NCBI GenBank assembly: GCA_903887485.1
Contig: CAISPV010000016.1
Coordinates: forward strand, 1 to 64,000
Source: an uncultured Desulfobulbaceae bacterium
Lineage (GTDB): Bacteria; Desulfobacterota; Desulfobulbia; Desulfobulbales; Desulfocapsaceae
DNA: 64,000 nt
Reading direction: 5' to 3'
Shown here: one piece after another, positions 54,231 to 56,240 of the stretch
Numbering within the stretch: the first letter of the stretch is position 1
How the letters are laid out: every line of letters begins with the position of its first letter
Notes under the pieces: generated by a model
Told to the model about the DNA's origin: nothing
Databases searched by the model: none
What the model saw: only the letters and a program-made list of their open reading frames with translations
Program-made: the position numbers and the translations under genes

Positions 54231-55415
54231 ATGAAAATTAAAGGGTTTAAAACAGCGGCAGTCGCTGCCGGTATCAGATATGCAGACAGGCTGGACCTTG
54301 GCCTTATCTTCAGTGAGGTGCCGGCCGTCACTGCCGGGGCCTTTACCACCAATCAGGTGAAGGCGGCTCCTGTTGTGCTTGATATGGAGCGTCTGAAGCA
54401 GGGAAAGGCGCAGGCCATTTTAGTCAACAGTGGTTGCGCCAATGCCTGTACCGGAGAGGCGGGCATGCAGGCCGCCATTGCTGCCGGTAATTGTGCCGCA
54501 TTGGCCCTAGGTATTGCTGATGAGATGGTGCAGGTTTCGTCCACCGGTGTCATCGGTGAACAGTTGAATGTGGCATCCATAAAAAAAGCCATGCCAAGAC
54601 TTGTGGCCGGGCTGTCGCCAGATAATTTTGAGCAGGTTGCCAAGGCCATTATGACCACGGATACCGTTTCGAAAACGGCATACCGCAGTGTTGTTATTGG
54701 TGGGCAGGAGGTTCATTTTATGGGAATGGCCAAGGGTGCGGGGATGATCATGCCCAATATGGCCACCATGCTTGCCTTTGTGCTGACCGATGCCCAGATC
54801 AGTTTTCCCCAACTCCACAGCGCCTTGATCAAGGGTGTGGAGCGTACCTTTAACCGGATCACCATTGACGGTGATACCAGCACCAATGATATGGTGCTGG
54901 TGATGGCCAATGGCGCTGCCGGCAACCCTTGGATTGATGAGGAGACCCCGGACAATCAGGAGAGCTTTCAGGAGACCCTGGCGGATCTGCTCAAGGATCT
55001 GGCCTTGCAGATTGTGGCTGACGGTGAGGGCGCCACCAAGTTTATCACCATCCGGGTCTGTGGGGCCAGAGAAGAGCAGGATGGCGAGCAGATTGCCCGG
55101 ACCGTGGCTAACTCCAATCTGGTAAAAACCGCCTTTTTTGGCGAAGATGCCAACTGGGGCCGAATCATTGCCGCTATGGGACGCTCAGGGGTTCGATTCT
55201 ATCCGGAACGGGTGGATATCTCCTTTGGTGATGTGATGATTGTCAAGGATGGGTTGGGGCAGGGGAAAGAGGCAGAAATGGCCGCAACCGCCATCCTCAA
55301 AGAGAAGAATATTGTGGTGACGATAGATTTGAAAGATGGAACAGGATGTGCCGAGATCTATACCTGTGATTTTTCAATTGATTATGTGAAGATCAATGCT
55401 GATTACCGGAGCTGA
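54231..55415 (+). CDS. argJ: Bifunctional ornithine acetyltransferase / N-acetylglutamate synthase ArgJ
   Basis: Arginine biosynthesis: recycles the acetyl group from N-acetylornithine to glutamate. Start at ATG 54231 with GAGAAAGAG upstream; 394 residues. FTTNQVKAAPV, LVNSGCANACTGEAG and TDTVSKTAY are family blocks. KGAGMIMPNMATMLAFVLTD contains the self-cleavage site, with Thr of ATML becoming the nucleophile of the beta chain. GRIIAAMGRSGV and the typical C-terminus follow. A clear terminator lies 40 bases downstream. Confidence 0.95.
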   Translation: MKIKGFKTAAVAAGIRYADRLDLGLIFSEVPAVTAGAFTTNQVKAAPVVLDMERLKQGKAQAILVNSGCANACTGEAGMQAAIAAGNCAALALGIADEMVQVSSTGVIGEQLNVASIKKAMPRLVAGLSPDNFEQVAKAIMTTDTVSKTAYRSVVIGGQEVHFMGMAKGAGMIMPNMATMLAFVLTDAQISFPQLHSALIKGVERTFNRITIDGDTSTNDMVLVMANGAAGNPWIDEETPDNQESFQETLADLLKDLALQIVADGEGATKFITIRVCGAREEQDGEQIARTVANSNLVKTAFFGEDANWGRIIAAMGRSGVRFYPERVDISFGDVMIVKDGLGQGKEAEMAATAILKEKNIVVTIDLKDGTGCAEIYTCDFSIDYVKINADYRS

Positions 55416-55697: not shown

Positions 55698-56240
55698 ATG
55701 GAAATGAAGAGAGTGAATCAACCCGCTGTTCCGTTTCAACTTCAGGATGCTGCCGGCCAGCTGCACCGGCTTTCGGATTATACCGGTTTCTGGCTGTTGA
55801 TGGTCTTTCACCGGCATCTCGGTTGACTACCCTGCCAGAGGCATCTCTCGCAGTTGCGGGAGCGGAAAAATGAGCTTTCGACAAATAATATCAAGGTGGT
55901 CGTCGTTACCTTTGAGGCCGGTTTCCTGGCCCGCCGCTATATGGAGGAAAATAGTCTCGAATGGCCGTTGCTGGTTGACGCGAACCGGGAACTCTACCGG
56001 GCCTATGGTATGCTTGACGCCGGTTTTTGGGATGTCTGGGGGCCAAGTACCTGGTGGGCCTATCTCAAGGAAATTGTACGCGGTCACCTACCGCAAAAAT
56101 CATCGGGTGATCTCCGGCAACGGGGCGGTGATGTGCTGATCGATCCGCAAGGCATTGTGCGGCTGCACCATGTAGGCTCCGGGCCGGCAGACAGGCCTCA
56201 GGTTGATACCATCCTCCAGACAGCCGATTTGCTCATTTGA
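55698..56240 (+). CDS. Peroxiredoxin-like selenoprotein (UxxC; in-frame TGA read as selenocysteine)
   Basis: From the ATG at 55698 (AGAGG six bases upstream) the frame is open except for one TGA at 55824-55826, and runs on to 56240: 180 residues with Sec43. The start codes for MEMKRVNQPAVPFQLQDAAG, then LSDYTGFWLLMVFHRHLG-U-LPCQRHLSQLR. In thioredoxin-fold AhpC/TSA-like (PRXL2/SelL-related) proteins the same spot is RHLGCxxC, so the TGA replaces the first redox cysteine and Cys46 is the partner. Downstream is normal family sequence: VVVVTFEAGFLARRYMEE, WPLLVDANRELYRAYGM, GGDVLIDPQGIVRLHHV. A hairpin directly after the TGA (55832-55853) fits a bacterial SECIS. Default annotation would give only a headless fragment from 55854. 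Likely thiol/peroxide redox enzyme in the cytoplasm. Alternative: a nonsense mutation, which would be an odd coincidence at this codon. Confidence 0.85.
55827..55853 (+). promoter_or_regulatory. Putative bacterial SECIS element
   Basis: Immediately after the TGA: CTGC (55832-55835) pairs with GCAG (55850-55853), a C-C mismatch follows, then AGAG (55837-55840) pairs with CTCT (55845-55848) around the apical loop GCAT. The loop begins 14 bases after the TGA and starts with G. This is similar to, though slightly closer than, known bacterial SECIS hairpins, whose loop G contacts SelB. Confidence 0.65.

Follow-up and report, generated by a model that had tools for sequence, protein, structure and literature searches.

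The locus examined here raises the question of whether an in-frame TGA inside an otherwise open gene is read as selenocysteine (Sec) and, if it is, what kind of enzyme the gene encodes. The gene lies on the forward strand near the end of the window, the whole stretch of 64,000 nucleotides that was analysed. It is almost certainly a functional SelL-related selenoprotein gene (NCBIfam NF040769) in a host with the full selenocysteine pathway, and comparative evidence, drawn from sequence throughout, shows the TGA at 55824 to be decoded as Sec.

Reading Frame and Gene Context

Translated with TGA as a residue, the gene at 55698-56240 (forward strand) gives a 180-residue product from 180 codons that include one read-through TGA, at 55824-55826 (residue 43), which is the sole internal one; the terminator is a second TGA at 56238-56240. 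The original prediction had described an open frame from an ATG through a single TGA to a natural end at 56240, preceded by a ribosome site, and both parts are borne out, the first by this read-through translation and the second by an AGAGG stretch a few bases 5′ of the ATG at 55698 that resembles such a site. The alignment of the nearest relative begins near 55704, so the start may be either 55698 or 55704. The residue encoded by the internal TGA, U43, sits in the context FHRHLG-U-LPC, and its assignment as the Sec of a UxxC active site draws on the aligned column and the Sec machinery described below. Its resolving partner in U-L-P-C is Cys46, encoded by a TGC at 55833-55835 (forward strand) and invariant in the alignment.

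The gene is solitary, flanked upstream by an argJ-like gene that ends at 55415 and downstream by ABC-transporter open reading frames on the opposite strand, the names of these neighbors being taken from reading their translations. There is no conserved operon or recurring neighbor to hint at a partner or substrate: no neighbor in the window reappears at the other loci, and the largest neighbor cluster among the loci is the antisense open reading frame of the selenoprotein gene itself. Small subsets of loci (L054, L072, L098, and a few others) have genes nearby that look, as judged by eye, like metal-handling genes, namely YHS/P-type ATPase, MerR, TVP38-like, mercuric-reductase-like, and radical SAM genes.

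Conservation of the TGA and of the Downstream Frame

Within the Desulfobacterota, 9 of 395 genomes contain an NF040769 match above cut-off, and eight of the nine matches carry exactly one internal TGA. Patterns derived from an alignment of those eight genes, with the TGA codon omitted, were run against GTDB contigs. The best 80 of 108 matches make up a sample of 80 loci, which come from Desulfobacterota, Acidobacteria, Planctomycetes, Gammaproteobacteria, Verrucomicrobia, Rokubacteria, and others. When the window gene is added to these best 80 of 108, 80 of the 81 genes have TGA at codon 43 and one, L121, has TGC (Cys); because the sample is ranked by similarity, this Cys count may be low for distant members. 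The expectation that the TGA occupies the position of a redox cysteine therefore holds, the aligned column having Sec (80) or Cys (1) and nothing else. Single-sequence searches of genome contigs and viral contigs found no related loci, and the plasmid collection gave only remote peroxiredoxin-like matches, below 33% identity among the ten matches listed.

The single Cys gene nests among Acidobacterial Sec genes (support 84), has GAT CTG where the Sec genes have CAG TTG, and is without the downstream hairpin. Its placement and these codons indicate that L121 is a switch from Sec to Cys with loss of the SECIS element.

Decay of the frame beyond the TGA would be expected of a broken gene, and none is seen. 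Downstream of the SECIS element, the window gene and its closest relative, L052, differ with a dN of 0.152 and a dS of 1.65 (dN/dS ~0.09), and every one of the 80 Sec genes has exactly one internal stop. These rates indicate strong purifying selection on the part of the frame that follows the TGA, and the earlier reading of the downstream frame as intact is upheld. Synonymous change is also restrained where the hairpin lies: dS is clearly lower in the SECIS stretch than in both flanks in four of five comparisons with relatives, as in the comparison with L060 (0.18 in the SECIS stretch, 0.95 downstream, and 2.69 upstream), whereas the comparison with L052 has no clear dip (0.85 versus 0.60 upstream).

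The SECIS Hairpin

A bacterial SECIS hairpin is found at 55845-55862 (forward strand), with a 7-bp stem formed by 55845-55851 and 55856-55862 and an apical AGUU loop at 55852-55855. The loop with its closing C-G pair, CAGTTG at 55851-55856 (forward strand), corresponds to codons +9 and +10 counted from the TGA and shows no variation across all 80 Sec genes. All of these genes have the hairpin at a fixed spacing, 21-38 nt downstream of the TGA, with the 7-bp stem, AGUU loop, and C-G closure. A bacterial SECIS element, by a rule reportedly set out by Zhang and Gladyshev in 2005, has a G within the first two bases of its loop and a TGA-to-loop distance of 16-37 nt, and the window hairpin conforms to it with a gap of 25 nt.

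Folded as a single sequence, the window hairpin is no better than its shuffles (z −0.91), and the case for it consequently relies on comparison across genes. Among 55 distinct sequences, 94.0% of stem cells are paired (75.0% in shuffles), 65 stem cells carry double changes (23.2 in shuffles), and the covariation score is 0.529 (0.189 in shuffles), with every slid register far lower; five of the seven stem pairs covary. When synonymous codons are shuffled within each gene, which preserves protein and codon usage, at least six contiguous pairs are expected in 5 genes and are observed in 73 of 80. The Leu codon at +10 is TTG in all 80, whereas elsewhere in the same genes TTG accounts for 207 of 1631 Leu codons (12.7%). 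Such codon choice argues that the invariant CAG-TTG loop codons are not forced by the protein sequence.

The hairpin had been predicted to have two parts, and it is the second, at 55845-55862, that covariation supports. The first small hairpin, at 55833-55843, gains no support from covariation and was set aside: pairing holds in only 75% of its cells, and the two pairs that stay constant sit in the invariant Cys and His codons.

Selenocysteine Machinery of the Host

The genome to which the window contig belongs (3.19 Mb in 124 contigs, 97.7% complete) encodes the full selenocysteine machinery. Scores are 620 bits for selA (cut-off 268), 389 for selB (cut-off 242), 377.5 for selD (cut-off 125), and 68.3 for tRNA-Sec (cut-off 47). 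With selA, selB, selC, and selD all found, a lack of machinery, which had been named as grounds for abandoning the prediction, does not apply. The selD gene (L048, 1501-2442; G000:C3) has an in-frame TGA of its own at the active site, within TVKAAGUAAKLGPGDL, so the organism plainly makes selenoproteins. In this setting, SelB with Sec-tRNA would bind the AGUU hairpin and insert Sec at TGA 55824, as established SelB biology suggests, and TGA 56238, with no such hairpin, would terminate translation.

One record from the scan differs in its machinery. The gene L078 (5001-5507 of CP070731.1, “Flavobacteriaceae bacterium isolate bin416 chromosome”, 2.6 Mb) has the TGA and the invariant CAGTTG loop, and this single-contig record has no selA and no selB or tRNA-Sec over cut-off. 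This could reflect a transferred gene left as an orphan, a chromosome that is not complete, or wrong assignment of the record.

Relation to SelL and to Published Selenoproteins

The window gene matches NF040769, “SelL-related redox protein”, with 193.8 bits over nearly its whole length (curated cut-off 120 bits), and its Pfam matches are AhpC-TSA and AhpC-TSA_2. It shares the fold and active-site position of the family and has no feature to distinguish it within the UxxC clade, where it is an ordinary member. SelL itself is said to have been described by Shchedrina et al. in 2007 as a selenoprotein with a UxxU diselenide motif. The window motif is UxxC, and the gene is properly filed, on its motif, as SelL-related and not as SelL. 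As Cys46 replaces the second Sec of SelL, an Se-S bond would be expected rather than a diselenide.

The suggested relation to SelL is confirmed. Three UxxU genes (L137, L138, and L141) have the same RHL/RHF-U-L motif as the window gene and join its clade in the tree with support of 93; the two that were scanned, L137 and L141, score in NF040769, which thus takes in both UxxC and UxxU genes. The window gene groups with L052 (support 99), and the UxxA/UxxS and CxxC groups fall outside the clade formed with the UxxU genes. The three UxxU genes, which are SelL-like, carry two TGA codons each and come from sample genomes of the Acidobacteria phylum. The UxxA genes (L026, L029, L030, L031, and L038) and the UxxS gene (L027) have the motif RHFGUxFA/S, in which Sec is kept and the resolving Cys is absent; this group may be the published “UxxS AhpC/TSA” family (PMC13188914). 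A separate group of short Prx-like selenoproteins, L040-L045, has the motif NRGFxUP[FY]C and occurs in Desulfobacterota.

The gene had been called hidden, a description that does not stand. Papers from 2005-2008 onward describe Prx-like selenoproteins with a UxxC motif, from marine metagenomes (PMC1088965, PMC2398784), and the family appears again in PMC9312934 and in PMC13188914, the latter listing a “Prx-like thiol:disulfide oxidoreductase UxxC, UxxU”. Those of PMC1088965, PMC2398784, and PMC13188914 resemble the window gene in Pfam family (AhpC-TSA), UxxC motif, and bacterial Sec, a likeness by description that does not imply the same exact clade. Given the NCBIfam curation and the prior publication, the window gene is not new as a kind; it is a new member of an already named family, correctly recognized and well supported but ordinary in kind.

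Predicted Fold and Putative Activity

An AlphaFold2 (AF2) model built from 40 alignment rows (pLDDT 85.5, pTM 0.84) places U43 immediately before a helix spanning residues 44-55, so that the active residue stands where the first main helix begins, as in peroxiredoxin and thioredoxin folds. The closest fold matches are Bcp4 (Z 20.7, rmsd 2.5 over 154 residues) and AhpE (Z 19.6), followed by human PGFS/PRXL2B (Z 19.3, rmsd 2.4 over 158 residues), and sequence profile matches include ResA, Bcp, and PGFS. The match to PRXL2B, the prostamide/PGF synthase (PDB 9usa and 9us9; AhpC-TSA_2), has a profile value of 1e-5, and its CxxC cysteines C44/C47 correspond by numbering to U43/C46. PRXL2B is an animal Cys enzyme of ~23% identity whose substrate is not transferable to the window protein.

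The classical peroxiredoxin motif PxxxTxxC/U is missing, there being no Thr at −3 (H40-L41-G42-U43). “Peroxiredoxin” accordingly names a fold and not a proven activity, and the label “peroxiredoxin-like” holds for the former. Fold and motif suggest that the product is most likely a selenol/thiol oxidoreductase or peroxidase of the UxxC type, located in the cytosol and related to the UxxU SelL and to animal PRXL2. As a cytosolic monodomain enzyme of the peroxiredoxin fold, it would use the U43 selenolate to attack a peroxide or disulfide; Cys46 would then resolve U43 as an Se-S bond, which a thioredoxin-type reductant could recycle.

Alternative Explanations

A TGA lies one base from TGC and TGT, and this one falls at the expected catalytic Cys position, as might follow if a Cys gene had suffered a nonsense mutation or been misread in sequencing. 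That the gene is such a pseudogene or artefact is nonetheless vanishingly improbable: the TGA is common to 80 genes of several phyla, almost every one from an assembly of its own, which refutes the idea, and both the purifying selection on the downstream frame and the covarying hairpin after the TGA speak against it. Decoding of the TGA as some other amino acid, by suppression or a reassigned code, is slightly harder to dismiss, since the sequence alone reveals a sense codon and not the identity of the residue. It is still very improbable, as the window gene itself terminates with TGA, as do 28 of the 81 genes, the genome has SelA, SelB, SelD, and tRNA-Sec, the geometry of the hairpin is that of a bacterial SECIS, and Cys is the only alternative in the column.

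A selenoprotein reading leaves a choice of chemistry. It is a substantial possibility, somewhat short of an even chance, that the protein serves in a thiol-disulfide relay or in a lipid or prostamide-synthase-like reduction and not in peroxide removal. The motif is UxxC and not TxxU, the classical PxxxTxxC is missing, ResA is among the best PDB sequence matches of the profile, and human PGFS/PRXL2B is among the fold matches; against such a role, the folds closest by Z are the Bcp/AhpE peroxiredoxins.

Implications for the Family

The SelL-related selenoprotein gene at this locus bears on annotation, as a pipeline without TGA recoding would truncate it at residue 42 or call only its 3′ part (open reading frame 55854-56240). 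The family also offers a clean comparative case of a bacterial SECIS element, with fixed spacing and loop and covarying stems, and includes one natural switch from Sec to Cys with loss of the hairpin. Its least ordinary point is the rarity of Cys-for-Sec replacement, abundant Cys forms being known for many Prx-like selenoprotein families (PMC2398784). With Cys in place of Sec in a single gene of the 81 sampled across phyla, and with the codons of the SECIS loop fixed, the RHLGUxPC clade might be near-obligately dependent on Sec, a proposal that we make tentatively and regard as rather doubtful. If it is true, the chemistry would need selenium where Cys cannot serve. The scarcity of Cys forms in itself makes the clade a good place to test why some enzymes retain selenium.
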